Notes under the pieces: generated by a model | Told to the model about the DNA's origin: nothing | Database searches by the model: none | Seen by the model: the letters and a program-made list of their open reading frames with translations, nothing else | Made by a program: the position numbers and the translations under genes | NCBI GenBank assembly: GCA_031288185.1 | Contig: JAITRZ010000014.1 | Location: forward strand, 23,160-87,159 | Direction of reading: 5' to 3' | DNA from: Coriobacteriales bacterium | GTDB taxonomy: Bacteria > Actinomycetota > Coriobacteriia > Coriobacteriales > UBA8131 | Length of the DNA: 64,000 bases | Shown: positions 23,655 to 50,902 of the stretch, piece by piece | How the letters are laid out: each line of letters starts with the position of its first letter | How positions within the stretch are numbered: position 1 is the stretch's first letter

Positions 23655-23659
23655 GGTTC

Positions 23660-30557: not shown

Positions 30558-31766
30558 CTACCGCTCATAGATCTGACCGCCGCCCAGCAGTTTATACATG
30601 GCGTGATATATCTGCTTGGGATCGTTGAGCCGGTGGGCGGGCGGCTGCATGGTAAAGCGAATAATGGCGCCTTCTATCAGTTCTTTGATAGGCACCTTAC
30701 TCTCGATACAAATAGCCTGGGTGGGACAGATGTCCTCACAAAGGCGGCACTGTACACAGTCTGCCGGATAGTGTTCCACACCCATGTCGCCGTTTTTACC
30801 CGGATCGTCAAACATGGCAATTGCGCCAGTAGGGCAGAATGTCGCGCACATCCGGCATGCGCTACAGCGTTTCGCGTCGATGCGCAGATAGCCCCACAGG
30901 CGGCTGTCAAGGTATTGGGCCATCGGCTCGCCAATGAGTGCCAGATGATCAAGCATCCGCTCGCGACGGCTAGGCACAAAGTGGGGCAAGGTGCCATCGG
31001 CCATCACCTTAACCACACGGGGTCGGGATCCATCAAGCGCCTGTTGCTCCATCTCCAGAGTTTGAAGTGCCGCCTGGCTGGCCGCTTCGGTCATGCGGGT
31101 TTTAATCTGGGTAAAAAACTCTCGGCGCGACACACCATCAACATCTGAGGTCTGCGCAGCTTTGTTTCTCTTGCGCAGGACGTTAGCAGGTAGCCCCTCG
31201 TCCATCCGCATTGGATCATCACGCCCCCACACTGCGAGCAGGGCGCGCATTGTTTCTAAAACAAGTTTTGCAACCTCATAGCCACGGGCGCGGTCGCAAT
31301 CTGCGCAGATGGCATGAGCAAACCGCGGCGCTGGCATTCCAGAGGCAATCAGCGCAACAAGTTCGCTTTCTTCTAAGCGTCCCAGACAGCCAAGTCCTAT
31401 GACCCGGCTCTTATCATACGTGCCTTTGCAGGCATCAAGCAGTGGCTCACAGGCAAAGACAGGTGCCTGCCCGGTCTCTCTGAGGACGTTCATGCTCATC
31501 TCCAACAGCTCTGAGGCTGCTGGCTTGCGCGCTTCTAAGGCCATCGTTGGGCAGGCGGCGGCGCAGCTGCCACAGCCCAAACAGGTGTCGGGATCAACGG
31601 ACAGTGTATTGTTTTCTATTCTGATGGCTTCGGGTGTACAGGCCTGCAGGCAGCGTCGACAGTGAGCGTTACGGTTGCGCACCAAAACGCAACGTTCAGG
31701 GTGAAGGATTAGATCGTCGGTATCCAACCTGCTTAGGCCATCAACTAAATCCAGTATAACCGGCAT
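30558..31766 (-). CDS. Multi-cluster 4Fe-4S protein of unknown function
   Basis: The 402-residue protein has a ferredoxin pair at each end. N-terminal groups are CRRCLQACTP and CLGCGSCAAACP; C-terminal groups are CSACRMCATFCPTGAI and CVQCRLCEDICPTQAI. The middle region contains further cysteines (FACEPLLDACKG, GLGCLGRL, CADCDRARG) reminiscent of electron-transfer adaptors such as MvhD or HdrA-linked proteins, but no family is certain. No signal peptide is seen, so it is probably cytoplasmic. ATG at 31766 (MPVILDLVDG) has GAGG before it; the longer frame adds 25 unconserved residues. It is co-transcribed with the AroB-like gene. Confidence 0.75.
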   Translation of the reverse strand: MPVILDLVDGLSRLDTDDLILHPERCVLVRNRNAHCRRCLQACTPEAIRIENNTLSVDPDTCLGCGSCAAACPTMALEARKPAASELLEMSMNVLRETGQAPVFACEPLLDACKGTYDKSRVIGLGCLGRLEESELVALIASGMPAPRFAHAICADCDRARGYEVAKLVLETMRALLAVWGRDDPMRMDEGLPANVLRKRNKAAQTSDVDGVSRREFFTQIKTRMTEAASQAALQTLEMEQQALDGSRPRVVKVMADGTLPHFVPSRRERMLDHLALIGEPMAQYLDSRLWGYLRIDAKRCSACRMCATFCPTGAIAMFDDPGKNGDMGVEHYPADCVQCRLCEDICPTQAICIESKVPIKELIEGAIIRFTMQPPAHRLNDPKQIYHAMYKLLGGGQIYER

Positions 31767-31875
31767 CTCACAAACCTCGCTTTCTGGACTCCTGCATCCG
31801 GGGGAGGCCGGTGGGGGGCCGCCAGATGAAGATTCTCGCACAACCTTCTAAATGTCCAAAAGGTACTCGCGCGGA

Positions 31876-32175: not shown

Positions 32176-33153
32176 ATGAGCCATGATCCACCTGATGCGC
32201 AGGGTTTTTCTGGTTATACAGATACCTTTCTTTCATCCCCCTTTTCTGCTCTTGACACCTTTGGCCTTGACGAGTCGTTTGATCCACTGTCAGACAGTGA
32301 ATTGGATACTGATGACGAGGATTTTGAAGAGTCAATCGAGTTGATTGGCCCCGGTAGCCTTTCTGTGCGGCCGGGCTCTGCTACCAAACAAGTTGATACC
32401 CGTAGCGCACAGGAACGCATCGCCGATCTTCTGAAAGCGATGGCTCCTCACCGCAAGGCGCTTTACGGCATCCTGGCTTTTTGTCTAAAGCCGCACCTCG
32501 CAAAGGAGGTCGACGGTGAGGTCGAGCGCCTCAAGGAGCACAGCCTCTCTGTATTCAGTGCAGCTAATTTGACAAATCTTTTAGAACAATCCGGTGGGAT
32601 TCGTCGCGTTGCGGCGGATGGTAGCGATTACAACCAAAATGCAAAACCACAACTGGTTGAGGAGGAGGGGATACCGTACCTTCGTCCGGGGCAGGCGCCT
32701 GACATCTACTGGGTTACAACTGCCGAGGGGCGCGCGGCACTTGAGGCCGACAATCCCTTACAGCGTCTGCGCGAACTATTTGCGACCGACAGCCGATACC
32801 TACCCATCTACAAGCGCATACTCACCCTGTGTAAACGTGAAGGAGGGGTATCAGTCAGGGAGTTGGGCATTCACGTGGATGATGATCCGTTGACGCAAAA
32901 GCCACGCCTGTACGCGCCCCGTTTTCTTGACCGACTGGAGAAATGCGATGCAGTCATCTGGCGCGGAAACTGGATTATCACCAACATTGGCACGAGTGCC
33001 CTGGAATTTCTGGATACGACACGCGATGACTATGCCATGCCCACGTCTGAGACAGTGGCGGCCAAACTCGCTCCACAGTTCACCGTACCTGCCATAGCAT
33101 CAGCGGCGCAAGCGAAGAGGCAAGCGGATGGCAGGCCGGCAGGCCTGCCATGA
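32176..33153 (+). CDS. Conserved protein of unknown function linked to TorD (tandem winged-helix-like), copy 1
   Basis: Not assigned to a known family. After an acidic N-terminus (SELDTDDEDFEESIELIG) the 325-residue protein contains two similar segments, each with ALYGILAFC- or IYKRILTLC-like helices, a short loop, a recognition-helix-like LTNLLEQSG or FLDRLEKCDAV, and a small strand pair. This suggests two winged helices. The product encoded at 38585-39388 is a clear paralogue (both have VDDDPL.Q.PR.Y...F.DRL). Both copies directly precede a torD gene with an ATGA overlap. It may be a regulator or a maturation factor for molybdoenzymes. GAGAGG precedes the ATG. Confidence 0.7.
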   Translation: MSHDPPDAQGFSGYTDTFLSSPFSALDTFGLDESFDPLSDSELDTDDEDFEESIELIGPGSLSVRPGSATKQVDTRSAQERIADLLKAMAPHRKALYGILAFCLKPHLAKEVDGEVERLKEHSLSVFSAANLTNLLEQSGGIRRVAADGSDYNQNAKPQLVEEEGIPYLRPGQAPDIYWVTTAEGRAALEADNPLQRLRELFATDSRYLPIYKRILTLCKREGGVSVRELGIHVDDDPLTQKPRLYAPRFLDRLEKCDAVIWRGNWIITNIGTSALEFLDTTRDDYAMPTSETVAAKLAPQFTVPAIASAAQAKRQADGRPAGLP

Positions 33154-33968
33154 CAACTGACCACTTTACGAACGCCAGTTCTTCTCCAGCTTCTGCCCAT
33201 CCTAATGCAGGAGCGCCGCGCGCGTTGTCCACCAACATCTCAGACGATGGGGCATTGATAGAACTTGCTCAACTGAATGTTCAGCGCGCCGCCACCTATG
33301 CCTTCTTAAGCCGACTTTATCGGGTTGAGATCGATGCGGAGTTGTTGGAAGAGCTGCGGGAAATGCGCTTTCCGGTGGACACCGGCGACGAGAAGATTGA
33401 CCGGGGTTATCGAACCATCGCTGTCTATCTAAGCGCGGTATGGGAAAACAGCCTAACTGAACTGGCCGTGGATTATGCGCGCGTGTTCATCGGCCATGGC
33501 GTAGACGCCTTTTCTGCCGCCTATCCCTTTGAGAGCGTCTATACCTCTGAAAAGCGCCTGCTGATGCAGGATGCTCGCGATGAGGTGCTGGCCCTCTATC
33601 GCGCCAGCGGTCTGCATAAATCCTCTCGCTGGAAGGAAGGCGAAGATCATATCGCCCTTGAGCTGGAGTTTATGCAGGCGCTTTGCCAACGAACCGCTGA
33701 TGCGTTAAAAAACGGTGATGAAAAAACCGCCACGCGCCACTTGCTCTCTCAGCTAAATTTTCTCATTGACCATCTGGCAGCCTGGGCGCCAATGATGACT
33801 GCGGATATGAAGAGCTTTGCTCAAACCGGTCTTTATCAGGGACTGGCCTGGCTGACAGAGGGCTTTCTTGAGACAGAGGTGGAATTTCTAAAGGATCTGT
33901 TGGTGTCACACGAGGCGATTGAACAAGGAGATAGATCAAGGCAAAATGGTAGGAGTGATCATGGGTGA
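33150..33968 (+). CDS. TorD/DmsD-family molybdoenzyme-specific chaperone, copy 1
   Basis: The 272-residue, mainly helical cytoplasmic protein belongs to the chaperones that bind the Tat signal of a molybdoenzyme until its cofactor is inserted. The family signature appears as EGEDHIALELEFMQAL (E-x-D-H) at about residues 161-176, with AAYPFESVYTSEKRLLMQDARDEV upstream. It is closely related to the product of 37842-38588. Translation is coupled to the preceding unknown gene. No molybdoenzyme is encoded in this plus-strand operon, so its client is probably one of the neighbouring minus-strand operons or lies elsewhere. Confidence 0.88.
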   Translation: MTTDHFTNASSSPASAHPNAGAPRALSTNISDDGALIELAQLNVQRAATYAFLSRLYRVEIDAELLEELREMRFPVDTGDEKIDRGYRTIAVYLSAVWENSLTELAVDYARVFIGHGVDAFSAAYPFESVYTSEKRLLMQDARDEVLALYRASGLHKSSRWKEGEDHIALELEFMQALCQRTADALKNGDEKTATRHLLSQLNFLIDHLAAWAPMMTADMKSFAQTGLYQGLAWLTEGFLETEVEFLKDLLVSHEAIEQGDRSRQNGRSDHG

Positions 33969-34617
33969 GAGCGAAAGGCCGGGGATAACCCGCCGCAGCG
34001 CGGTTGTTGGAGCAGGAGCGGCTGCCGTTGTCCTAGGATTGGGCGGTTTCAGGTTTCTGCCCACAGAACCCACCTTGAGGCCACCGGGAGGACAGGCAAC
34101 TGACCAGGTTGTTTCAGCCTGTATCCGTTGTGAGAAGTGCTATGAGATCTGTCCACGTGAAGTTATTGTGCCAAGCCACATCGAGGCGGGCATTTTGAAC
34201 ATGCGCACCCCTACACTTGACTTCTCCGGTGATTATTGTGATTGGTGTGGAGAAGCCAACAACGGTGACCCTCTCTGTGATAAGGTCTGCCCCACTCTGG
34301 CCCTCAGATTGCCAGAGGGCGCTAGCGCCAAAAACACCATCATCGGCGTTGCTGAACTCTATACAACCTGGTGTCTGGCCTACAAGCTGATTGGTTGCCG
34401 TTTTTGTTACGATGCCTGTCCCTATGAGGCCATGGAGCTTGACGGGAATAATCGCCCTTATGTGCTTAACGATAGATGCAACGGCTGTGGCGCCTGCGAA
34501 AGCGTTTGCGTTTCGCTGCAAAGCGGTTCTATCGCAGAAGGCGCCGATGAGCGCGCGATCATTGTTCGGCCGCTGAGGCAGGATGGCAGCGTCCTGTATC
34601 GCTGGAAACCGTCTTAG
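33961..34617 (+). CDS. NapG-like Tat-exported ferredoxin-type protein
   Basis: The 218-residue protein starts with a twin-arginine motif (ITRRSAVVG) and hydrophobic segment, then carries four iron-sulfur groups: CIRCEKCYEICP, CDWCGEANNGDPLCDKVCP, CRFCYDACPYEA and CNGCGACESVC. This is the architecture of NapG/MauM ferredoxins, which pass electrons from a NapH-type quinol dehydrogenase to exported acceptors. ATG at 33961 has AGGAG 5 bp before it and overlaps the torD stop by 8 bp; an earlier in-frame TTG would bury the start inside torD. napA-type nitrate reductase is not nearby. Confidence 0.87.
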   Translation: MGESERPGITRRSAVVGAGAAAVVLGLGGFRFLPTEPTLRPPGGQATDQVVSACIRCEKCYEICPREVIVPSHIEAGILNMRTPTLDFSGDYCDWCGEANNGDPLCDKVCPTLALRLPEGASAKNTIIGVAELYTTWCLAYKLIGCRFCYDACPYEAMELDGNNRPYVLNDRCNGCGACESVCVSLQSGSIAEGADERAIIVRPLRQDGSVLYRWKPS

Positions 34618-34637
34618 GACTGGGAAGAGGAAAGCCC

Positions 34638-35693
34638 ATGAGAATTGCGAGCTTGCGTGTTCTGGTTGCTCTGGCCGTCATTGCTTTAATCACCATCGGC
34701 TTTGTAACAAATATCGGCATCGGTACGCTCTCGTCCTTTGGCTGGAGCGATATTTCTATTCTTTGCCCGCTGGGCGCTCTGACAACGATGCTAGGTGCCA
34801 AGATTCTTGTGCCACGTGCACTGATCGCCCTGGTCATCGTCGTTATATTGATTGTGCTTGTGGGCAGAGCTTTTTGTTCTTGGGTTTGTCCCGTACCGCT
34901 GCTGCAAAAGCTGCGCGCGGTGTTTCGTAAGGACAGCAAGCTCACCACACCTGATGAAGAATCAACTGTAGGGACAGGTGATACTGATACAACTGCCACC
35001 TGCAGGTCTGCCGCTTCCCTCAAGACGCAGTCTACCGCCCCTCCCAGGGTAGCGGGTAAGGCAGAAAAGGCCAGCCTGTGTCACTCAAATGGCGATGCCT
35101 CAAACTGCTCTAGCTGCGCTCAAAAGCGTGGCACCCTTGATCCTCGGCATTTTGTGCTTGGCGGCTCCTTGCTTTCGGCTGCCCTTTTTGGCTTTCCGGT
35201 GTTTTGCCTTATCTGCCCCATCGGCTTAAGTTTTGCCGCTATTTTGCTGGTGGTTCGGCTGTTTAGCGAAGGTGATCTAACATGGTCAATTGTTATTGTG
35301 CTGCTGCTTCTAACGGTCGAAGTGCTAATCTTTCGTAAGTGGTGTTCACAGATTTGCCCACTTTCTGCCTTCATGTCACTCCTGGCCAAGGTCAACCGGA
35401 CGTTTCGGCCCGCCATCAACAAAGCCACCTGCCTTGAGACCGCCAAAGGTATTGATTGTGGACTGTGCGCAAAGGCCTGTCCCGAGGACATTGACCCGCG
35501 CCATCCCAAGCGTTCCTACGCGCCCATGAGTGAATGTACAAAGTGCCTGGAGTGCGCAAAGGCCTGTCCAACTAAAGCGTTGCGCCTGCCCTTTTTGCCT
35601 GGGTCGCGCGCAAACGGAGCTGGTTCGGACGACAGTGGAGGTTTGGGCGGCAGCGGTGGCCCCAACACATCTGAACAGGAAAGGGCCGCATGA
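34638..35693 (+). CDS. NapH-like membrane ferredoxin (polyferredoxin quinol dehydrogenase)
   Basis: The 351-residue protein has membrane helices at both ends of the hydrophobic part, CP motifs (ILCPLGALT, SWVCPVPLLQK, FCLICPIGLS, QICPLSAF) and a C-terminal ferredoxin domain (CGLCAKACPEDIDP and CTKCLECAKACPTKAL). NapH-type proteins oxidise quinol and hand electrons to NapG. About 55 polar residues (roughly 100-158) with extra cysteines (CSSCAQKRG) are inserted between helices. The gene follows napG-like by 20 bp and its stop overlaps the next start (ATGA), tying it to the helicase-like gene. Confidence 0.87.
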   Translation: MRIASLRVLVALAVIALITIGFVTNIGIGTLSSFGWSDISILCPLGALTTMLGAKILVPRALIALVIVVILIVLVGRAFCSWVCPVPLLQKLRAVFRKDSKLTTPDEESTVGTGDTDTTATCRSAASLKTQSTAPPRVAGKAEKASLCHSNGDASNCSSCAQKRGTLDPRHFVLGGSLLSAALFGFPVFCLICPIGLSFAAILLVVRLFSEGDLTWSIVIVLLLLTVEVLIFRKWCSQICPLSAFMSLLAKVNRTFRPAINKATCLETAKGIDCGLCAKACPEDIDPRHPKRSYAPMSECTKCLECAKACPTKALRLPFLPGSRANGAGSDDSGGLGGSGGPNTSEQERAA

Positions 35694-37855
35694 GTTCTCA
35701 GGTGATGATGGTTGATGGGGAAGCGCTTCCCATGGTTGAGACGTACAGGATAGTCGCAGTTGACCCCAGACGCTTCACCACTCCTGAAGCGCGGTGTATC
35801 CTTGGGGGTGCTGGCACGGGCAAGACCGAACACCTCTTAAAAAGAATTTCCGCATTACTTGCGGCGGGCGCCAAACCTGGCGAACTGTTGGTGCTGTGTG
35901 CCACCCCTTCTGCTGCTATAGACTTTAGGGAGCGGCTGGCGCTCCGGATTGAAAATATCGCTTATGAGATAAGTATAATAACGCCTCGCGCGCTGGCCCT
36001 TGAGATTCTTTCAACAGAGATGGCCAGGGCATATACCAGACGTCCCGCTCGGCTCCTCGCGTCCTTTGAAGTTAATTTTCTGCTGGAGGATATGAAGACG
36101 GTGGGCACGCGACCAGGCCGGCTTAGAGAGATACTGAAGTTTTTTTATCGAGGCTGGACAGAACTGGCTGAGGACGATCCTGAATGGCTTATCATGGCTG
36201 AAGAGGTGCACCTGCATCGTCTGCTGCTTGAAAACCTCACCTTTATGCAGGCAATGCTTGAGCCGGAACTCTCCAAGCTGGCACTTGGTTTTTTGCGTGG
36301 CAATGATGAAGCGTGCCAACAGACCGCGCCTGCTCATATTTTTGTAGACGATTATGGCTTTTTGAGCAGGGCTTCACAACTGCTGGCGCAGTTTCTGGCG
36401 GTTCAATCAATCACGGTGGCCGCAGACCCCTTTGTCAATTACCCTGTATTTGATTCCTATCCCTATCTGGACGGTGTGCAAGAGTTCATGAGCATCAATT
36501 CAGCGGCTAACCGCACGGTACTAAGTGCCAGCTGGCGAAGCGCCGCCGTGACTGCCGCTCTGGGCGACCTCTTCTCTGACCAGGCTCTTGCATCAAACGG
36601 CTCCGCACAAACTGAAGCCGCAGGAGATATTTCAGCCCCAGGGTTGGCAGCGCACGGAAAGGAGCATGTCGAAAGAACTGGAGGCGTGGGAGATATTTCA
36701 GGACTGCCACTGCCTGAAGTGTGTCCTGGTGCACCAAGCGGGCAGGTGGATGAAGGGACGGTAACCAGCGTAGCGTTCAGCGGCCCTGCTGAGGAGTTTG
36801 AGGGGGTGGCGACCAAGGTCGAGATGTTGCTTGCCTCCGGACTGCGGCCCAGGGACATCGGCATTGTCTCTCTGCATGAGCTTTGGGGAAAGCAGGTGGC
36901 CGCTCACCTTATGAGCCGTGGTATCCAGGCCGCCACCCTTTTTGGCGACAATCAGTTGAGAGGTGATATACGTGACTTGAGCCGTTCCTTTGCGTTGCGT
37001 GTCTATACGGCCCTGCGCCTGACGGCAAATCCCGCAGACAGTGCGTCCTGGCGTTGTTGGTGCGGATTTGGGGACTACCTCACAAACAGCGCGGCCCTGC
37101 TAGAACTAAAATCAAGGCAGCCAGGCCCCAGCCACAAGGTTCAGAGTCCTGCCTGCACAACCCCTGCTGTCCCACCTGAGCCTGTGTCACTCTTGGCCGC
37201 TTTGGCTACTAAGGGCCAACATCTGCCCGACACTGAGGACGACATTCTTTTTGAGGATCCGACAGAAACCAGTGAACCCATTTTGGGTAAAGTGCTTGTC
37301 CAGTGGCAAAAAGGCCAGAATATCATTGCTCATTGCGCGGATCTCAGAGGTCAAGAGCTGCTAAACAAAATTATGCATCTAGTAGCAAGCGATACGCCTA
37401 ACCCTTCCTTACTTCCCCCGGCTCTCTTTTCCTTGGTTCCTGAGTGCGCTTCAGCTGTTGAATTGGCGCGTTTGCTGGAAGAACGCCTGCTTTTTCCCCA
37501 TTTTGATGTCCCGTGTGACCAGGTGCGTGTTCTTGTCCCCTCACAACTTTGTGGCCTGCACTTCAAGGCGGTAATTGTTTGCGGCGCAGCCAACGGCTTT
37601 TTGCCCTGCCGTGACTATTTTGACGGCACCATCGTGTCTCTTGATCAGCGAGAGCGCATGCGCGCCCGCGATCTCAGGCTGTTTTACCTGATAGTGGGCA
37701 CACCTCTCCAGGACTTGATATTTACCTGGTTTAGAAAAATAGACCTTGAGAGCGCTGAACGCTTGAAGTTGAAAATAGCGCGTATTCGCCTGGAAAAGGG
37801 CCAGCGCGTCTGTTTAATGACCCCCAGCCAGCTCCTTGAGCTCATTCACCGCTGA
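35690..37855 (+). CDS. Degenerate UvrD-like superfamily 1 NTPase of unknown role
   Basis: The 721-residue protein has an intact Walker A (GGAGTGKT, residues 39-46). Later helicase motifs are altered: the DExx box is VDDYGF (219-224), the GDxxQ motif reads AADPFVNYPVF, the motif IV arginine segment is SASWRS, GLHFKAVIVCGAANGFLP stands for motif V and DLRLFYLIVGTPLQD replaces the arginine-finger TRA of motif VI. The middle (about 295-370) is low-complexity. ATP binding looks possible but classical helicase action doubtful. Translation is coupled to napH-like, and its last 14 bp overlap the convergent torD. Presence in an electron-transfer operon is unexplained. Confidence 0.65.
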   Translation: MSSQVMMVDGEALPMVETYRIVAVDPRRFTTPEARCILGGAGTGKTEHLLKRISALLAAGAKPGELLVLCATPSAAIDFRERLALRIENIAYEISIITPRALALEILSTEMARAYTRRPARLLASFEVNFLLEDMKTVGTRPGRLREILKFFYRGWTELAEDDPEWLIMAEEVHLHRLLLENLTFMQAMLEPELSKLALGFLRGNDEACQQTAPAHIFVDDYGFLSRASQLLAQFLAVQSITVAADPFVNYPVFDSYPYLDGVQEFMSINSAANRTVLSASWRSAAVTAALGDLFSDQALASNGSAQTEAAGDISAPGLAAHGKEHVERTGGVGDISGLPLPEVCPGAPSGQVDEGTVTSVAFSGPAEEFEGVATKVEMLLASGLRPRDIGIVSLHELWGKQVAAHLMSRGIQAATLFGDNQLRGDIRDLSRSFALRVYTALRLTANPADSASWRCWCGFGDYLTNSAALLELKSRQPGPSHKVQSPACTTPAVPPEPVSLLAALATKGQHLPDTEDDILFEDPTETSEPILGKVLVQWQKGQNIIAHCADLRGQELLNKIMHLVASDTPNPSLLPPALFSLVPECASAVELARLLEERLLFPHFDVPCDQVRVLVPSQLCGLHFKAVIVCGAANGFLPCRDYFDGTIVSLDQRERMRARDLRLFYLIVGTPLQDLIFTWFRKIDLESAERLKLKIARIRLEKGQRVCLMTPSQLLELIHR

Positions 37856-38588
37856 AGGGAGGGTCAGGAACAGACCTGCCATCATGGTGTTCATCGTCTG
37901 ACGCTTCTATCCATTCCGATAAAATATCAAAATCTGTAGCAATAAATCCCGCGCTCAGGAACGCGAGGGCCCGGTAAAAATCCGTCTTTGCGAATTTGTG
38001 CATTTCAGCAAAGAGCATCGGTGTCCAGTTTGCAAGGTGGTCATTTAGAAAACCGTACTGTACCGCAAGCAATCTGGCGGCCTCGTCTTCGCGCTGTTTC
38101 TGTCGTGCAACCAGCATTCGTTCACCTATAACCTGCATAAACTCCAGCTCCAGGGATATATGGTCTTCTCCCACCTTCCAGCTGGAACGAGTGATAATGT
38201 CATTGGCGCGATAGAGCGCCAGTATTTCATCCCTGGCATCCTGCATCAGCAGGCGCTTACTGGATGTGTGTACGCTTTCAAACGGATAGGCGGCTGAATA
38301 GGCATTTACCCCATTACCCAGAAAGACCCTGGTGTAATCAATTGCCAGCTCGGTAAGCGTTCTTTCCCAGGCGTTGCTTAGGTAGGTATGAAAGAGGCGA
38401 TAACCCGCATCCATATCCGCGTTGCCCGTATTCACCGGAAACCGCATTGCGCGCATCTCGGAGAGTAATGGTTCGTCTACCTCCTTACGATACAGGCGTG
38501 TCAACAGGGCATAGGTGGCAATTCGCCCTTCTAACAGAGTCAGGACATCGGAATCTGACATTACGTTTGCGCATTCTAGCTCGCTCAT
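37842..38588 (-). CDS. TorD/DmsD-family molybdoenzyme-specific chaperone, copy 2
   Basis: The 248-residue paralogue of the 33150-33968 product, with the family signature VGEDHISLELEFMQVI and the shared AAYPFESVHTSSKRLLMQDARDEI. ATG at 38588 is chosen because GGAAGGAGAGG precedes it and the ATG overlaps the stop of the upstream unknown gene (ATGA). It is the last gene of the minus-strand molybdoenzyme operon A, so its likely client is the catalytic subunit encoded at 41044-43953. Its 3' end overlaps that of the UvrD-like gene. Confidence 0.9.
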   Translation of the reverse strand: MSELECANVMSDSDVLTLLEGRIATYALLTRLYRKEVDEPLLSEMRAMRFPVNTGNADMDAGYRLFHTYLSNAWERTLTELAIDYTRVFLGNGVNAYSAAYPFESVHTSSKRLLMQDARDEILALYRANDIITRSSWKVGEDHISLELEFMQVIGERMLVARQKQREDEAARLLAVQYGFLNDHLANWTPMLFAEMHKFAKTDFYRALAFLSAGFIATDFDILSEWIEASDDEHHDGRSVPDPPFSGE

Positions 38589-39388
38589 TGTTCTGCCTCT
38601 CCTTCCGATAGCGCACATTCAACCAACACCTTGAGGCCGATATCGGTTGTTTTCCACAACGGCATCCACGCGAGAGCATCATATTCATTGAGGCGATCGA
38701 TGAAATACCCGCTGTAGCGGCGAGGCTGCTGCAAGAGGGGGTCGTCATCAACCAACACGTTAAGTTCAATCTTGCTGCGCGGCTCATCAGCACAAAACTC
38801 AAGGATGCGCCTATATATCTCCAGGTACTCGTTATCCTGTCCTAAGATTGTTTTCAGGTTAGAAAGGGGGTCAAGTGCATCATAGAGAACCAGTGCCTCC
38901 GGTGTTGACAGCCAATTGCCCTGAGCGGACGTTTGAACCACCAGATATTCTGTCTCTGAGCCATCCTGCTGTGTCAGCGGCTCAACGGCCACGGTTTCTT
39001 CATTGGCTTGTTCATCCTGTTGATATATCAGCGCCCCGGCTTCTTCCAGTAACTGCCGCAGCATAACCGGTGTGTAGACCGAGCGATTTGTTTTTTGCAT
39101 CGCTTGGGTAAACTCGTCCACCTCCTGGGGGCTGCGTGCGCTTCGGCAAAAATCGATAAGGGCAAGTAGGATTTTTTTCTGTGCTGGCAGGCTGGACAAA
39201 AGATCGTTAATGCGCTGCTCAGAAGAACGCCCAGGTTCATCACCACATTCTGCCTCTAACCGCTTTTGGCTGCCGACCAGCCCGATGAACTCAATGTCCT
39301 GATCCTCTTCATCCAACTTTGCGACACCCGCGTCGTCCAGGGGGTCATAATCCAGTTCGCAGGTAAAACCGTGGTCATCCTGATACAC
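38585..39388 (-). CDS. Conserved protein of unknown function linked to TorD (tandem winged-helix-like), copy 2
   Basis: The 267-residue paralogue of the protein encoded at 32176-33153. The two share segments such as RINDLLSSLPAQKK / RIADLLKAMAPHRK and VDDDPLLQQPRRYSGYFIDRL / VDDDPLTQKPRLYAPRFLDRL. As in copy 1 an acidic N-terminus precedes two helix-turn-helix-like segments. GTG at 39388 is preferred (GGAGG 6 bp before); TTG one codon earlier is closer to the ribosome-binding site than usual. It lies 192 bp after the anchor gene and overlaps torD copy 2. Nothing was recognised in the 192-bp gap. Confidence 0.7.
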   Translation of the reverse strand: MYQDDHGFTCELDYDPLDDAGVAKLDEEDQDIEFIGLVGSQKRLEAECGDEPGRSSEQRINDLLSSLPAQKKILLALIDFCRSARSPQEVDEFTQAMQKTNRSVYTPVMLRQLLEEAGALIYQQDEQANEETVAVEPLTQQDGSETEYLVVQTSAQGNWLSTPEALVLYDALDPLSNLKTILGQDNEYLEIYRRILEFCADEPRSKIELNVLVDDDPLLQQPRRYSGYFIDRLNEYDALAWMPLWKTTDIGLKVLVECALSEGEAEQ

Positions 39389-39580
39389 CAAACGCCTCCG
39401 TATCTCTCCTCTTGCTCACGTCTGTTTTTCTGGTGAGTGGGCTGGTGAATGGGCACATTTACCCTGGTTGTTAAGCCTGAGTGCAGCCTCCCGTCTGTTT
39501 TGCCTGTTTTCCTCGTGCTGGTTTGGGAAAGAACCGTGTATCTCTGTCAATAGGCTCCGTTGTCAGCAGAAGGCGTATTG

Positions 39581-40453
39581 TTAGTAGAAGGCGTAAACAC
39601 TGATGCCCAGGATATACAGCGCGGCCCTGAAGGCTATCCCACCTGCCAGAGCGCAGATCAGCGCGGCGCCAGCAAAGCCTGAGTTAGCCACCGATTTATT
39701 CCAGAACAAAAATCCCAAAACAGCGGCAATGACACCACCCATTATCAGCGCTCCCCAGAAATAAGCAGCTAGTTCACCTACCAGCAGGTTGCTTCCCAGG
39801 TCGGTAGGGGCAACCATCGGTTTGGTGGGCTCGGTGGGGTCAAAGTAATTGCCAACCATCGGCAGTGACAAACTGCCAACATACGCCGCATAGGCGACAA
39901 GAGACACTGCAACCAAGGCTCCACCAACGGCCGTAAAGCGCGCTCCTAGCTGGAGCGAGTCCTCGGTTTTGGTAAGAGCCGCAATTAACCACAGGGCTGA
40001 CGCGCCGGCCACCACCATCTGCGCCAGATAGAACAGGTGCAACAGGACGGTTGACCACACGGGACGTGCGGCCATCATATAGGAATTTGCCATGACCAAG
40101 ACCAATACCACTCCACCAACCACGGCAAGCGCTCCCATCCATTTGGGAATCTCACCTCTGCGGGCAAAGGCAAAGTAGATGATAATAAGGACAAACATCA
40201 CCGCAACAGCGATCAATTCCTGGGTTATCCCTGAGCTCAAGTGACCAAAGCCATTGAAACTCCGCTCCCAATGTTGCAGATGCGTAAATGAAGCAATGCC
40301 GCCAATAAGCAAGGCAACCAACGCCACCATCAGGCTTGGCATTTGCAGTTTAGCTCCCTTGCCAAGCAAAACCAGCAGGCCCTGTCCGGCAAACACGCCA
40401 GCACTCAGGCAGACAAATAAGGTAAAGAGCACCAAAGACCACTGTATCTCCAT
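39581..40453 (-). CDS. DmsC-like membrane anchor subunit, operon A
   Basis: The 290-residue protein has about eight hydrophobic helices and matches dimethyl-sulfoxide-reductase anchor subunits, which oxidise menaquinol and pass electrons to the ferredoxin subunit. Typical pieces are MEIQWSLVLFTLFVCLSAGVF at the start and FTHLQHWERSFNGFGHLSSGITQE. It is closely related to the product of 46035-46952. Its start lies 3 bp after the ferredoxin gene stop. Confidence 0.88.
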   Translation of the reverse strand: MEIQWSLVLFTLFVCLSAGVFAGQGLLVLLGKGAKLQMPSLMVALVALLIGGIASFTHLQHWERSFNGFGHLSSGITQELIAVAVMFVLIIIYFAFARRGEIPKWMGALAVVGGVVLVLVMANSYMMAARPVWSTVLLHLFYLAQMVVAGASALWLIAALTKTEDSLQLGARFTAVGGALVAVSLVAYAAYVGSLSLPMVGNYFDPTEPTKPMVAPTDLGSNLLVGELAAYFWGALIMGGVIAAVLGFLFWNKSVANSGFAGAALICALAGGIAFRAALYILGISVYAFY

Positions 40454-40456
40454 CTC

Positions 40457-41041
40457 TTATCCCTTCCATTTCATAGTTCTAAGGATGTATTTGAAGGTTG
40501 GCTTATTGCCTACATCAGGCAGTGAATAAACCTTGCCGGAATCCTCAGCCGCCAGTATCTTGGATACCTCAGAGCTGGCATCCTCCAGGTCGCCAAAGTA
40601 GCGAGCACGGCCGCCGCATTGGGTAACACACTGGGGTGTACCGCCGTCAGCGATGAGTTGTTCGCAAAGAGTACATTTCTCAACAACCCGCTCGTCCTCA
40701 TTAAGATAACGCACATTGTAGGGACAGGCCATCACACAAAACTGACAGCCGATACACTTCTGCTTGTCGATCTGCACCGTTCCATCTATGAGTTTCTGCG
40801 AAGCGCCGGTGGGGCAGACCTCAACACATTGGGGCTTTTCGCAGTGTTGGCACTGAACTGTCAGATAATAAAGCTCAACATCCGGCCAGTTATCCCCTTC
40901 CTTTTTTGGGTTGGGGCCAACACGCAGGGTCTTGTTCCAAAACTGTCCTATCGGCACCGAGTTGACCATTTTGCAGGCAACCGAACAGGCCAGGCAGCCA
41001 ACACAACGATCCAAGTCAGTAACAATCGCATACTTAGTCAT
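40457..41041 (-). CDS. DmsB-like ferredoxin subunit, operon A
   Basis: The 194-residue electron-transfer subunit carries four [4Fe-4S] cysteine groups: CVGCLACSVACK, CQHCEKPQCVEVCP, CIGCQFCVMACP and CTLCEQL...CVTQCGG. It links the DmsC-like anchor to the molybdenum subunit, whose stop codon is 2 bp upstream. It is paralogous to the ferredoxin of operon B but shorter by 27 residues near the C-terminus. Confidence 0.92.
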   Translation of the reverse strand: MTKYAIVTDLDRCVGCLACSVACKMVNSVPIGQFWNKTLRVGPNPKKEGDNWPDVELYYLTVQCQHCEKPQCVEVCPTGASQKLIDGTVQIDKQKCIGCQFCVMACPYNVRYLNEDERVVEKCTLCEQLIADGGTPQCVTQCGGRARYFGDLEDASSEVSKILAAEDSGKVYSLPDVGNKPTFKYILRTMKWKG

Positions 41042-41043
41042 AC

Positions 41044-43953
41044 TTATTTCCTTCCCTCATAGACCGGCTGCCATTCTTTAAGGCGGGGATCGGTTGCCGA
41101 GGCGATGATCGGTGTGCCATCTTGGCCGGTTGGCACTACAACGCCGCCCGGACAGTTGGCCGGCGTGGCTTTGTAGATGGTGCCCAGATAGGCGCGCAGG
41201 TTTGTAGCGCCACATATGGGGCACTGCGCATACCTGTCATTGACGCAGTTAATACTGGACAGCCTAAAGCCGTGCCCCGACTCATTGAGCTCTGGATACC
41301 ACCATTGGTGTTCGCAATTTATGGTACCTTTTTTGATACCGTAGTACAGATCGGCAACCTGGCGAACCTTGCCCCATTCAGTTTCAATCCACACCCAGTC
41401 ACCCTGTTCAATACCCAGTTCAGCGGCATCCTCTGGGTTGATTTCGCACCGAGGCGTCGGCCACAGTTCACGACACCAGGGCAGCTGGCGATGCTCAGAG
41501 TGAAAATAAACGGGAATGCGCCGGCCCGTTGTAACAATAAAGGGGTATTCCTTGAAGCGTTCGGGATCGCTGATGGGGGAGTGCGGTGGTTCATCATAGG
41601 TGGGCAGTTCAAATCCCCGTCCCGGCATCAGAGACTCGACGATGGTCGACCAGAACTCATATTTTTTTGTTGGGGTATTCCATCCCGGCGTAGGTGGTAC
41701 GGGCGGCCCACCCATCATGCCCGCTGAACCTCCCAGGATATAGCCGGTCTCGTAACGGCGGTAGGTGCCCCACCGGTCTGGTTCCATGACCTTGGCGTCC
41801 CACCAACCATCGCGTTGAAATGCCTCGGCATACTGATTCCAGGACATTCCACTGCCCATCACAGCGTTGTTGAGAATAAACTGCTCTCCTGGTTCCCAAT
41901 CTTCAGGAAGATTGCCAGGCCAGGGATCCTCAGGGTTGGGACTATAGAAGATTCCCAGGGCCTTGGCCACTCCCATGATTATCAGCGGATCCCAGAGGGT
42001 ATCTGCCGGTGGCTGCACACAGCGCACGTTAGCACCGTAGGCTCCTGACGATCCCTGAGACACGCGCGAACAGTTAATTTCCAGCCAGTGCCAGGCGGGC
42101 AGCAGGAGATCAGCATAGTCGCTTGAGGGGGCGTGCCAGAGATTGCATTCTATGATAAAGTCAAGTTTGACCAGCTGATCCCAGGCGTTGTTCGCGTTGG
42201 TCATGTTCATGAAGTCGCCCGACATGTTCACGCCGCCCTTGACAGGATAGGGTTTGCCGGTCTCCATCGCGTCATAGAGTGTGTTGCCATCTGACCAGCC
42301 ACCCCACCAGCGGTTGACCGGGAATTCATCATCGCCGATCTCTTTGGAGCTGTCAGGGAAGTAACCTTGCATCATGGCACCGGGAATCATGAAAGCAAAG
42401 GGGGTAAAGCCGCCGTCCACAGGGGCCATGGTTGGGCCTCGCTGGCCAGCCGGCGTGTCATAGTTACCGGTAAGCGCCGCGATGGCATCAATAGCTCGGC
42501 AGTTTTGAACTGCCGTGCCTGCGTGCTCTACAGCCAGCATATACTGAATGCCGCCATTGCCATAACCAGACGCAGGATCGATACGCGTGGCGTAGGTCTT
42601 GGCTGCTGCCTCCAGTTGGTCGGCGGGGACACCCGTTATCTCAGCGGCCCTTTCAGGGGTGTAGTCGCGGCAGACCTCGGCATATATATCCAAGACTGGA
42701 CGTACTTTTACCGTTGTACCGTCCTTAAGCGTAACGTCATATTCACCATAGATGGCAGGGTCTATCTCTGGATTGAAAGGCGTGGGGTCAGGAACAAATC
42801 CCTGAACTACACCAGGCATCAGATGAGGCTGACGCGCCTCATGGCCCTTGGTGGGAGGCGAGAAGGGCGGCTCGTTTTCCCAAAGACCGGTAGTGGAGTC
42901 AAAATAGGTAAGCCCGTTTGCGATACTGTCCCAAACCATGAAGCGCGTAGGATCGCCGCCTTCAATCAGGTCTGATTCCTTAAGAAGGCGTGTTTTCAGT
43001 TCCCAGGGACGTCCCGGACCGTACAGTTGAGTGCTGCTAAGGCTTGGCCCTGTGGGAAGAACCAAGAAGGAAGCGTTGGTCCACCGCTTCACAAACAGTG
43101 CGTCAATCAGGTCGTTTTCCAGTATGACGTTAGTCCAGCAGAGCGCGACAGCGGCATCGGTGCCCGGACGCAGATTCATCCAGTAATCTGCGTTGCGGCC
43201 GATGCCAGCCATGCGTGGGTCAACTACGATATGAGAATCAGCCACAACAGCGCAGTCAACCGTAGTGCGGCAGGAGTCATCATAGTTTGATATTTCCGAT
43301 GCCCCACCCCACTGCACAAAAACACGGGGACGGTCAACAGTCGCCATCCAGCTAAAGGCCCTGTTGGAGACCAGACGTGTCGCGTAGTGGCGGGGACCCT
43401 TGCACACCTGGTAAGCCTGGATGGTGTTGGGCGTTTGCAGTATCTGTGGCCAGGCCATTAACCCACCCATCGACCAAACACGGCTTGTCCCTACCATAGA
43501 ATAAAACGTTTCGCCCCCGTACTTGTCTTTAAGTTCCTGTATCTTTTCCGCCGCTAATGCAAAGGCCTCATCCCACGTGATGCGTACCCAGCCGGGATCG
43601 GGCGCGTTTTTGGGATTAGTGCGCTTCATGGGATACATCAGGCGGTCAGGATGGTAACAGGCTTGGACTGATGCTTGTGATTTTGAACAGCAGTTTGCAT
43701 CACTCTGGAAGGCGTCCGGATCTCCCTCGATCTTAATGGCGCGACCGTTGCGCACTGTCACTAAAACCCCACATTCCATTTTGCCGCAGCCTCTGCAGGT
43801 GGTACGCACCACCTTGACCTCATCTGGTGTTGATGAGGCATTCTCATCAACGGCAAGCGCTCTGTCCATGACAGCGGACGTTAGAGCGGTTGCCGCGCTG
43901 AGCGCCGCAGCAGTTTTTACGAAACTGCGCCGTGTCATAGTTGGCATCTTCAT
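41044..43953 (-). CDS. Tat-exported molybdopterin oxidoreductase, operon A (catechol-dehydroxylase-like candidate)
   Basis: The 969-residue catalytic subunit of the DMSO-reductase superfamily starts with TMTRRSFVKTAAAL, a Tat signal. The [4Fe-4S] motif is C53RGC56GKMEC61GV with later CC at 88-89. C184 in QVCKGPRHYA is the candidate molybdenum ligand. PRVFVQWGGASEISNYDDSC and IVVDPRMAGIG are shared with the operon B enzyme. This arrangement (molybdoenzyme, ferredoxin, anchor, membrane LuxR regulator) resembles the dehydroxylase loci of Eggerthella, but the substrate cannot be read. ATG at 43953 has GGAGGAG before it; the longer frame adds 44 residues translated from an upstream direct repeat. 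Confidence 0.88.
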   Translation of the reverse strand: MKMPTMTRRSFVKTAAALSAATALTSAVMDRALAVDENASSTPDEVKVVRTTCRGCGKMECGVLVTVRNGRAIKIEGDPDAFQSDANCCSKSQASVQACYHPDRLMYPMKRTNPKNAPDPGWVRITWDEAFALAAEKIQELKDKYGGETFYSMVGTSRVWSMGGLMAWPQILQTPNTIQAYQVCKGPRHYATRLVSNRAFSWMATVDRPRVFVQWGGASEISNYDDSCRTTVDCAVVADSHIVVDPRMAGIGRNADYWMNLRPGTDAAVALCWTNVILENDLIDALFVKRWTNASFLVLPTGPSLSSTQLYGPGRPWELKTRLLKESDLIEGGDPTRFMVWDSIANGLTYFDSTTGLWENEPPFSPPTKGHEARQPHLMPGVVQGFVPDPTPFNPEIDPAIYGEYDVTLKDGTTVKVRPVLDIYAEVCRDYTPERAAEITGVPADQLEAAAKTYATRIDPASGYGNGGIQYMLAVEHAGTAVQNCRAIDAIAALTGNYDTPAGQRGPTMAPVDGGFTPFAFMIPGAMMQGYFPDSSKEIGDDEFPVNRWWGGWSDGNTLYDAMETGKPYPVKGGVNMSGDFMNMTNANNAWDQLVKLDFIIECNLWHAPSSDYADLLLPAWHWLEINCSRVSQGSSGAYGANVRCVQPPADTLWDPLIIMGVAKALGIFYSPNPEDPWPGNLPEDWEPGEQFILNNAVMGSGMSWNQYAEAFQRDGWWDAKVMEPDRWGTYRRYETGYILGGSAGMMGGPPVPPTPGWNTPTKKYEFWSTIVESLMPGRGFELPTYDEPPHSPISDPERFKEYPFIVTTGRRIPVYFHSEHRQLPWCRELWPTPRCEINPEDAAELGIEQGDWVWIETEWGKVRQVADLYYGIKKGTINCEHQWWYPELNESGHGFRLSSINCVNDRYAQCPICGATNLRAYLGTIYKATPANCPGGVVVPTGQDGTPIIASATDPRLKEWQPVYEGRK

Positions 43954-43972
43954 AAACTCCTCCTGTTGGATT

Positions 43973-44069
43973 GATGGCCCTGCGCGCTGGCACGCACGAA
44001 GGTGATGTAAGAGGGGATTCCCGCTGAAGGTGTTGATGGTTCTGCGCGCTGACGCGCACGAAGGTAATG
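43973..44069. repeat. 35-bp direct repeat upstream of operon A, copies 62 bp apart
   Basis: GATGG(CC/TT)CTGCGCGCTG followed by a variable base pair and CGCACGAAGGT(G/A)ATG occurs at 43973-44007 and 44035-44069 with a few differences. It would lie in the 5' leader of operon A and may be a binding site or RNA element. Confidence 0.65.
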
Positions 44070-44208
44070 ACCTCAAAACCCTCAAAAGAGTGGGGAAGCA
44101 CTCCTACCTTTCTACTCCCTCCCTCCGTACGGCCGCTGCTTTTTCAAGTATAGAGAGGTAGGAGGTATGCTTGGATCAGTAAAAACAACCGTAAAACGTC
44201 CCAGCCCG

Positions 44209-44322: not shown

Positions 44323-45810
44323 ATGGTCAATATACCAAAAGTCTCTCGCGAAAAGTCCCTGGCGCGTTTGGGCACTATGATTCCAGGGGAAAAGGAGAGT
44401 TTGTTCAGGATTGTAGGCTTTACCTGTAATCGTGCCTGGATCTACTGTGTCATCTTTAACCCCCTGTTAATTGCCTCCTCCGGTTTTACCTCCATTCCGC
44501 TTACTGTTTCCCTTTTCTGTCTTGCCATAACCCTTGTGGTGATGGCTCTTGCCCACAACCTTACTAAGCGCCTGCTTGAGAAGAACGGTTGCCTGATGGG
44601 GGCGGGCATGAGCATGGCTTTGGGTGCCTTCTTTTGGATAATGGCCAGCACCATGCAGCTTGATTCTGTTGTCCTGTTTGTGCTCTGTGGGATACTAACC
44701 GGTTTTGGATCTTCCCTTATGCTTATGCAGTGGGGACGCGTTTTTGGCGCTGTCCCAACTGCTACCTCTCATTTTGAATCGTCTCTGAGTTATCTCAGCG
44801 CTGCCTGCGTATTTCTCATGTGTGGTTTTTTGCCCCTGCCAGCAAGCGTTGGAGCGGCGATACTGCTGCCACTGATTTCAGTCTTTATTCTTGCGCAGTT
44901 GAAACGGCTCGCCGTTTCACCACGGCCAAACCTTGAGAATTTATCTGCTATCACGCAGGATAGTTTTTTCATCAAGTTGCTGCTTGGGGTTTTGCTGATA
45001 GGAACTTGCGCGGGTGTTGCTGATGAGTTTTACTTTATCTACAATCCGGTGATTTCACCAACGGATGCAACACTACAGTTCTTTCTGGCGGCCTTACTTG
45101 CGCCCCTCCTCATGCTCATAATTCCGGTTTTTTCAAAACGCCTGGATTTTGGCCTTACCTACCGACCAACCCTCGTAGTGATGATATTTGGAGTGCTGAT
45201 GCTGCCCTTCTTCACCGGGGGTACGCAGATGACAGGATGGATAGTGCTAGCTGGCTATCACTGCTTTGATTTGATGACCTGGATCTTGTTGGCTGATCTC
45301 TCCTATCGTTTCCACATTTCACCCATCCTCAGTTTTGGGCTCGGTCGCGGTGTCCTTTACTTCTCCTGCGGGATGGGCAGCTGCATCGGTAGGCTGATTC
45401 GCCTTTATTGGGGAATAGGATTTGAATCAATGGCTACCAGCCTGGCCGTTACCGTTATTACCCTGGTTCTTGTTTTGACCTACTGCCTTATATTCACAGA
45501 AAAGGATTTAAGTAGGTATGAAAGTGTGGCAAAGGACGGCCGCCCCGGCGCTGTCATGCAGTCATGCAGTCATATTGCTGGACTCTACGGCCTTTCGCCT
45601 CGGGAAGAAGCGGTGATGCGGTTGCTGGTAAAAGGACGTTCCATTGCCCGTATCCAGACTGAGCTTTTCATTTCTAAGGGAACGGTAAATACGCACCTGC
45701 GTCATATCTATCAGAAGTTGAATATCCACACCAAACAAGAGTTACTTGACCTCGTGGAAGGTGACAGGCTGCCCGTGCAAGCGCCAGAGCCTGACAGCCA
45801 CACCGAGTGA
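44323..45810 (+). CDS. Membrane-spanning LuxR-type transcriptional regulator (MFS-like N-terminus, C-terminal HTH)
   Basis: The 495-residue protein has about twelve hydrophobic helices over the first 400 residues and a C-terminal LuxR-type DNA-binding domain (YGLSPREEAVMRLLVKG, IQTELFISKGTVNTHLRHIYQKLNIHTKQELL). Regulators with this architecture have been described in Eggerthella, where they control adjacent molybdoenzyme operons in response to specific substrates; the membrane part is thought to sense the ligand. GAGGAG precedes the ATG. It is divergent from operon A and convergent with operon B, so it can serve both. Confidence 0.9.
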   Translation: MVNIPKVSREKSLARLGTMIPGEKESLFRIVGFTCNRAWIYCVIFNPLLIASSGFTSIPLTVSLFCLAITLVVMALAHNLTKRLLEKNGCLMGAGMSMALGAFFWIMASTMQLDSVVLFVLCGILTGFGSSLMLMQWGRVFGAVPTATSHFESSLSYLSAACVFLMCGFLPLPASVGAAILLPLISVFILAQLKRLAVSPRPNLENLSAITQDSFFIKLLLGVLLIGTCAGVADEFYFIYNPVISPTDATLQFFLAALLAPLLMLIIPVFSKRLDFGLTYRPTLVVMIFGVLMLPFFTGGTQMTGWIVLAGYHCFDLMTWILLADLSYRFHISPILSFGLGRGVLYFSCGMGSCIGRLIRLYWGIGFESMATSLAVTVITLVLVLTYCLIFTEKDLSRYESVAKDGRPGAVMQSCSHIAGLYGLSPREEAVMRLLVKGRSIARIQTELFISKGTVNTHLRHIYQKLNIHTKQELLDLVEGDRLPVQAPEPDSHTE

Positions 45811-46034: not shown

Positions 46035-46952
46035 TTAATAAAATACAAAAACCGAAAAGCCCAGCGCATAGAGCACAACCCTGAAGCATAGCGCGCCCGC
46101 GAGGGCACACAGTGCAGCCACACCGGCTGTACTTGCGGCCGTGGTGCCTTGTTGCCTTGTGACAAAGAAGGCCGCCGCGCCCGGTACAAGTGCGCCCAGT
46201 ACAAGCGCCCCTACCCAAAACAAGAGCGCTTGGTCTCCGGTAAGAAAGCCAGAGAGCATCCCCTGAGGATCGTCCATGACCTTGGTAGGCTGTGTGGGAT
46301 CAAAGTAGTTTCCCACAGAAGTAAACGACGGAGACAGGGAGGGGATAAAGACGGCGTAGGCCAAAAGGGCTATGAGCGTAAGCACGGCAGCGCCCAAGGC
46401 GAGTTTTGCGCTCAGGGTAAAGATAGCAGATGAGCCTTGAGAACCCTTTGCGCTTTCAGCGTCTGGCTTTGCAAGCGCTGAGATAGCCAACACAACCAAT
46501 GCCCCTGAAAGCGCGGCATTGGAGAGGTAATACAGCCAAAGCAGGGGTGTATCCCACACGGGACGCGCCGACATGCCATAGGATGCTGACATGATGATAA
46601 CCAGGACAACAGAAACAATTAATGCGAGCCATCCCGCCCAAGCAGGTACCGCTCCCCGTCTGGCCAACACAAGGTAGATGATGGCCACCACAGCAAAGAC
46701 AACGATGCCGATAAGCTCCTGGGTTATCCCGCTTGTTAGATGGCCAAAGCCATTAAACGCTCTGTCCCAGTGCTCAAGGTGCAGAAAAGAGGCAAGACCG
46801 CCCAGAACAATAGCAATAAGCGAAACAACAACTGCGGGTATCTGTATCTCTTTTGCCTTGTTGAGCCCCGCAAGCAGGCCGGCAACCCCAAAGGTGCCTG
46901 TTCCAAGGCAGATAAACAAGGTAAAGAACATTAAAGGCCATTGGAGTTCCAT
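46035..46952 (-). CDS. DmsC-like membrane anchor subunit, operon B
   Basis: The 305-residue paralogue of the operon A anchor, with MELQWPLMFFTLFICLGTGTF at the start and FLHLEHWDRAFNGFGHLTSGITQE. About eight membrane helices are expected, holding the menaquinol site. ATG at 46952 is chosen over an upstream start because GGGAGGAGG precedes it, operon A's anchor starts at the same residue, and it overlaps the ferredoxin stop as TAATG. Confidence 0.88.
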   Translation of the reverse strand: MELQWPLMFFTLFICLGTGTFGVAGLLAGLNKAKEIQIPAVVVSLIAIVLGGLASFLHLEHWDRAFNGFGHLTSGITQELIGIVVFAVVAIIYLVLARRGAVPAWAGWLALIVSVVLVIIMSASYGMSARPVWDTPLLWLYYLSNAALSGALVVLAISALAKPDAESAKGSQGSSAIFTLSAKLALGAAVLTLIALLAYAVFIPSLSPSFTSVGNYFDPTQPTKVMDDPQGMLSGFLTGDQALLFWVGALVLGALVPGAAAFFVTRQQGTTAASTAGVAALCALAGALCFRVVLYALGFSVFVFY

Positions 46953-47617
46953 TATCGACCTCCTCCCTGCCAAGTGCGTTCCCGTAGGATAAACTTGAAG
47001 GATGGGATATTGCCAACGTCGGGAAGCGAGTACACTTCGCTTTCCTTGTGCGGATTCAACAAGCTACCCAAAACGCTGCGTTCGCCCTGACACTTCTCAT
47101 ATGACTTATCTTCTTCCATTTGAGACGGTTCGGCGGGGCCTTCAAAAGACTCAATGCCTGCTTCCAGATCTCCAAAGAAACGAGCGCGCGCTCCACACTG
47201 CATAACACACTGTGGCAACTCGCCCTGGGCAATCTTCTGCTCACAGAGCGTGCATTTTTCCACGATGCGCTCTTCCTCATTAAGGTAGCGCACGTTATAG
47301 GGACAGGCCATCACGCAAAATTGGCAGCCGATGCACTTGGACTTATCTATCTGTACCGTGCCGTCCGCGCGCTTATGGGAGGCCTGCGTAGGACAAACCT
47401 CAACACACTGGGGCTTCTCGCAGTGCTGACATTGCACTGTTAGAAAGTACATTTCAACATCAGGGCAGACAGCACCTTCAAACTTGGGATTAGGGCCAAT
47501 GCGCAGTGTCTTGATCCAGAATGATCCGATGTCCACGCTGTTGGCAGCCTTACAGGCAACCGTGCAGTTTAGGCATCCGACACAGCGGTTGAGATCGGTG
47601 ACGATGGCGTACTGCAT
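46952..47617 (-). CDS. DmsB-like ferredoxin subunit, operon B
   Basis: The 221-residue subunit has four cysteine groups for [4Fe-4S] clusters (CVGCLNCTVACK, CQHCEKPQCVEVCP, CIGCQFCVMACP, CTLCEQK...CVMQCGA). Compared with operon A it has an acidic insertion near residues 158-192 (EGPAEPSQMEEDKSYEK). Start and stop both overlap the neighbouring genes as TAATG, indicating coupled translation of all three subunits. Confidence 0.92.
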   Translation of the reverse strand: MQYAIVTDLNRCVGCLNCTVACKAANSVDIGSFWIKTLRIGPNPKFEGAVCPDVEMYFLTVQCQHCEKPQCVEVCPTQASHKRADGTVQIDKSKCIGCQFCVMACPYNVRYLNEEERIVEKCTLCEQKIAQGELPQCVMQCGARARFFGDLEAGIESFEGPAEPSQMEEDKSYEKCQGERSVLGSLLNPHKESEVYSLPDVGNIPSFKFILRERTWQGGGR

Positions 47618-50772: not shown

Positions 50773-50902
50773 TAAGCTCTCCTTTTCTCTCTGATGATTT
50801 TGGTAAACGGACAGGCACGTGCAACGGATGTTCGATACACGCGGCAAAGCGAAACCCTCCCTTCTTTCTGCACGGATGGGTGCAAGTGTAGCGAACTGGG
50901 AG

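Follow-up and report, generated by a model that had tools for sequence, protein, structure and literature searches.

Two DadhE-family genes, each overlapping a TorD-like chaperone gene, in convergent operons of a Coriobacteriales bacterium

What is the role of two similar genes without an assigned family, each of which overlaps a gene for a TorD/DmsD-type chaperone, when only one of them shares its operon with a molybdoenzyme? The window analyzed here (a stretch of 64,000 nucleotides of contig JAITRZ010000014.1) belongs to a Coriobacteriales-type genome with a 1.81-Mb assembly that is 89% complete. The original prediction, made from the letters of the DNA, had described paralogous unknown genes joined to paralogous torD genes by ATGA overlaps, and convergent operons, one with a molybdoenzyme and the other with NapG-, NapH- and UvrD-like genes; coordinates, alignments and gene content all agree with this description (table 1).

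Gene content and relation to the dadh accessory set

Module 1, on the forward strand, has the order A–TorD–NapG–NapH–UvrD-like and no molybdoenzyme, and module 2, on the reverse strand, the order Mop–DmsB–DmsC–B–TorD; the two operons converge, the 3′ ends of the UvrD-like gene and torD2 overlapping by 14 bases. At the junction of A with torD1, the stop codon TGA (33151–33153) overlaps the torD ATG at 33150, and at that of B with torD2 the TGA (38587–38585) overlaps the ATG at 38588. Proteins A and B share 31.6% identity over 250 aligned residues (E 6e-39), and TorD1 and TorD2 are 53% identical (E 6e-85), both chaperones exceeding the PF02613 gathering score of 22.2 bits. The NapG-like gene probably starts slightly 3′ of position 33919.

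Table 1. Features of the window around the two DadhE-like genes (positions count from the first nucleotide of the window).
Feature	Position	Strand	Remarks
Ferredoxin, probable DadhI-like gene	30558..31841	-	427 aa; Fer4 7.5e-18; divergent from module 1
DadhE-like protein A	32176..33153	+	325 aa; predicted tandem winged-helix domains, preceded by an acidic N-terminal tail that bears a DPL motif
TorD/DmsD-type chaperone 1 (DadhF-like)	33150..33968	+	PF02613 5e-33, 114.5 bits; ATGA overlap with A
NapG-like ferredoxin (DadhG-like)	33919..34617	+	NapG NCBIfam 7.6e-18, below cut-off
NapH-like membrane ferredoxin (DadhH-like)	34638..35693	+	NapH NCBIfam 4.9e-22, below cut-off
UvrD-like protein (DadhD-like)	35690..37855	+	PF00580 2.3e-11; Foldseek UvrD E 6.5e-24
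TorD/DmsD-type chaperone 2 (DadhF-like)	37842..38588	-	PF02613 6.7e-29, 101.1 bits; ATGA overlap with B
DadhE-like protein B	38585..39391	-	268 aa; closest relatives L093, L078, L086
DmsC-like membrane anchor (DadhC-like)	39581..40453	-	PF04976 7.8e-12
DmsB-like ferredoxin subunit (DadhB-like)	40457..41041	-	PF13247 1.5e-23
Catalytic molybdopterin oxidoreductase, operon 2	41044..44085	-	Tat signal
Membrane LuxR-type regulator	44323..45810	+	GerE 2.2e-15
Second molybdoenzyme operon	46035..50847	-	catalytic 47617-50847, DmsB-like 46952-47617, DmsC-like 46035-46973

The original prediction held that the partner of the chaperone had not been named; however, the family already carries the name DadhE, from work on gut actinobacteria in which the need for it was shown genetically (JACS 2025; PMC11887054). 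The accessory set of the E. lenta dopamine dehydroxylase, DadhD–I, comprises a helicase-domain protein (dadhD), a hypothetical protein (dadhE), a TorD-like protein (dadhF), NapG/H-like proteins (dadhG/H), and a ferredoxin (dadhI) (PMC11887054). Like the genes in the window, the E. lenta gene adjoins that of a TorD-like chaperone, in company with helicase-like, NapG/H-like, and ferredoxin genes, although the order is E–F–G–H–D in module 1 and D–E–F–G–H–I in dadh, and the window, unlike E. lenta dadh, has two E–F pairs and one D/G/H set. Module 1 holds the D-, G-, and H-like genes as well as the divergent I-like gene, and module 2 holds, of the accessory set, E–F only; homologs of the I-like ferredoxin above 100 bits were found in 49 of the 80 loci surveyed below.

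Proteins A and B are homologous to the E protein that Eggerthella sinensis (L106) and Paraeggerthella (L105, L107) encode in clusters of the dadh type, and they match DadhE by gene content, by order, and by the loci of named close relatives of E. lenta. The clusters L105–L107, L079, L080, L083, and L089 encode a LuxR-type regulator, a small regulator, and D–E–F–G–H, the catalytic genes being divergent. In L105, L106, and L079 the small regulator is an HTH protein of LysR type. The arrangement of these clusters is the one published for dadh with DadR and DadS, the latter being a LysR-type gene reported only at dadh (PMC9734109). The DadS-like proteins (L105 6694-7227, L106 6588-7187, L079 6020-6607), each of fewer than 200 residues, combine an N-terminal HTH of LysR type with a C-terminal segment resembling LuxR, and have no obvious LysR ligand domain. 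Membrane LuxR-type regulators such as the one in the window are of the kind found beside catechol dehydroxylases (PMC9734109), and proteins similar to DadhE have also been reported in the hcdh and cadh clusters (PMC11887054).

Experiments with the E. lenta genes by others showed that dadhD–H are indispensable for Dadh activity in G. urolithinfaciens, and that the Cadh accessory set is unable to support Dadh (PMC11887054). Among the inactive strains, Dadh protein went undetected only without dadR or dadhD (PMC11887054); without dadhE the enzyme was apparently still produced yet inactive (PMC11887054), which argues for maturation over regulation. Taken with the homology, torD coupling, fold prediction, motif loss, and co-evolution described here, we consider it probable that A and B are DadhE-family maturation partners acting with DadhF. 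Each would be dedicated to the TorD-like chaperone encoded in overlap with it, and the two proteins would most likely bind the cytoplasmic pre-catalytic subunit during folding, bis-MGD insertion, and Tat proofreading, in a set that would further include the NapG/NapH-like ferredoxins for electron transfer and a helicase-derived DadhD in which translocation on DNA has probably been lost.

Association of DadhE with TorD and DadhD

A homolog of A lies directly upstream of TorD in all 80 loci of a first survey (Eggerthella sinensis, Gordonibacter, Adlercreutzia, Paraeggerthella, Raoultibacter, Parvibacter, and Coriobacteriales MAGs), which was built from linked TorD proteins used as bait and is thus biased towards coupling. 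A second survey was for this reason made from the E side, with a family profile and no reference to torD, and gave 81 copies in 18 genomes. At least 72 of these are linked to torD: it is the next gene downstream in 42 copies and lies 2.5–7 kb downstream in 25, of which the six that were read have the order E–Mop–B–(C)–TorD; two further copies are divergent from torD, and three were found adjacent to it on reading. The remaining nine are on contigs without a TorD among the matches listed. Both surveys contradict a location mostly away from torD and bear out the conserved coupling that had been predicted. Conversely, 69 of 150 TorD proteins among the matches listed are linked to an E gene, and the family appeared in eight of 297 genomes drawn from the phylum, all eight within one order.

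Where 6 kb could be covered on both sides (n=41), E–F was present in 41 loci, D in 28, and G–H in 23, so that only E–F is invariant, which follows in part from the use of TorD as bait; a locus may lack D, G, and H, and in the window these are perhaps shared by both modules. Patristic distances of the accessory proteins E, F, D, G, and H correlate with one another at 0.73–0.90, and at only 0.35–0.43 with those of the nearest catalytic subunit (E–catalytic 0.38). Within-genome paralog pairs give 0.72 for E–TorD (55 pairs) against 0.10 for E–catalytic (33 pairs), and the 17 loci with a same-direction catalytic gene just upstream give 0.82 and 0.66, respectively. Given this mutual covariation and the weak correlation with the catalytic subunit, accessory sets and catalytic genes seem to have recombined in evolution. 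It should be noted that joint inheritance by linkage alone could explain part of the tree correlation, and that the true client may be encoded by a catalytic gene other than the nearest; the weak E–catalytic co-evolution is not easily reconciled with the contact between DadhE and the catalytic subunit published from AlphaFold3.

The tree of E correlates most strongly with that of D (0.90, versus 0.81 for TorD), as would be expected if the primary partner of DadhE were the UvrD-like DadhD, with the mRNA or the nascent chain as possible targets, and if operon linkage were all that connects DadhE with TorD. We consider this unlikely, as 13 of the 41 fully covered loci have E–F but no D within 6 kb, and a UvrD-like gene is missing from all 12 loci read of a second DadhE subfamily (L142–L153), which is related to the first by profile (E 2e-23). 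D is hence not an obligate neighbor, although a D protein encoded at another place in the genome might yet fulfil the role. The clusters of the second subfamily, ordered E–Mop–B–C–TorD–G–H or Mop–B–C–E–TorD–G–H, possibly represent another enzyme class.

The UvrD-like protein of the window keeps the whole UvrD fold (TM about 0.65), as well as a Walker A motif (GGAGTGKT), and thus has the fold and, as usual in its family, the Walker A in common with the SF1A helicases UvrD and PcrA. Whereas motifs II–VI are intact in those helicases, they are degenerate here: the protein lacks the Asp-Glu of motif II and motifs III, IV, V, and VI, and across the 52 family members motif II reads DD and not DE in 49, and the Gln and Arg of motif III, the Arg of motif IV, and motifs V and VI are lost. 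The Walker A Lys is kept in 41 of the 52, and the PcrA of the same genome, used as a control, has all helicase motifs. From this pattern of motifs we infer that DadhD binds nucleotides but does not function as a helicase, its motor having probably been lost. The inference is relevant to the published proposal of a role for DadhD at the locus or its mRNA, without disproving it.

Predicted fold and charge of the DadhE family

Searching Pfam, NCBIfam, and PDB with the sequences of A, B, and the family as a whole yielded no consistent family. The AlphaFold2 model of A has a pLDDT of at least 92 (10-residue means) over residues 71–300 and contains two winged helices, at about residues 78–191 and 194–280, and hhalign aligns one half of the family profile with the other (probability 97.8, E 6.7e-13), in accordance with the internal helix-turn-helix-like repeat that had been suspected. 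The prediction for DadhE, an acidic protein, is thus a confident one: two winged helices in tandem, derived from an internal repeat. The acidic tail carries a DP[LFM] motif in 53 of 79 members.

Winged helices are usually DNA-binding, and the best Foldseek matches of the A model are mainly winged-helix proteins such as PadR, CAP, Fur, and MarR, with weak E-values and none at E <= 0.001, which would fit A and B being transcriptional regulators of the molybdoenzyme operons. Against this, the core has a pI of 4.6 and a median charge of −15 (75 members), and the putative recognition helices are near neutral (about −1 and +1), all by charge counts, so that DadhE has the fold of a winged-helix transcription factor in the predicted model without the basic DNA-binding surface. 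Moreover, the clusters already contain a LuxR-type activator, and Dadh protein was still detected in the inactive accessory mutants other than those of dadR and dadhD. The alternatives left by the original prediction, a chaperone partner or a regulator, therefore separate: partnership in molybdoenzyme production is the best reading, and a direct role in transcription is improbable.

As a maturation partner, DadhE would act in the same process as the TorD/DmsD/NarJ chaperones, one of which is encoded as its overlapping partner, although their all-helical fold is unrelated to a tandem winged helix. Its domain topology is common to the PadR/CAP/MarR regulators and to the tandem winged helices of Nse1/MAGE and MukE, from which it differs in being acidic, in its place within a maturation operon, and in the lack of any match at E <= 0.001. 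No winged-helix molybdoenzyme chaperone was named in the literature that we searched. A bolder reading, to which we give slightly less than an even chance, is that DadhE represents a new structural class, a tandem winged helix turned from DNA- to protein-binding that serves as an obligate TorD co-chaperone in the Coriobacteriales, and that DadhD is a former helicase acting as a nucleotide-binding assembly factor without a motor.

Origin of the two modules and their putative clients

In the phylogenetic trees, A, TorD1, and the NapG-, NapH-, and UvrD-like proteins of module 1 are all closest to L044, and B, TorD2, DmsB, and DmsC of module 2 are closest to L093, the catalytic subunit being closest to L078 and then L093 (83% and 77% identity to the respective enzymes, versus 51–52% to those of dadh-type clusters). 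The modules, which had been described as duplicated, consist of genes whose closest relatives are found in other genomes and not in the opposite module, and appear from these trees to be separate old lineages brought together. A recent local duplication without functional meaning, suggested by two similar E–F pairs 5 kb apart, is highly improbable and was rejected, as the tree distance between A and B (3.75) is far larger than those of A to L044 (0.96) and B to L093 (1.33).

The second molybdoenzyme operon encodes neither a DadhE nor a TorD of its own, and is possibly the client of module 1. Enzymes with 85–90% identity to its catalytic subunit occur in L072, L103, and L064; when the accessory genes found there were compared with module 1, they were not its closest relatives, so that this assignment stays an inference. 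The L072 enzyme is the one with 90% identity, and its operon carries its own E–F–D–G–H whereas that in the window carries none. In the likely model, in which DadhE and DadhF act as maturation pairs in putative direct contact, the window would hold two client-selective E–F pairs beside two molybdoenzyme operons, with one common D/G/H set.

A separate molybdoenzyme cluster (20596-24445, forward strand) encodes a ferredoxin, a 746-aa molybdopterin oxidoreductase, and a protein with multiple CxxCH-type haem motifs and no Pfam match. In the genome as a whole, about 14 molybdopterin-domain genes stand against only three TorDs found in the assembly (89% complete), and so most of its molybdoenzymes share a TorD or do without one.

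The study that named the family left DadhE without annotation and handled DadhD as a predicted helicase (PMC11887054). New here are the predicted fold of DadhE, the probable loss of the DadhD motor, the extent of the coupling to torD, and the modular evolution of the accessory sets. The fold, the invariant E–F core, and the motif loss in DadhD direct which mutants to test, and suggest that the choice of client may be set by the E–F pairs.
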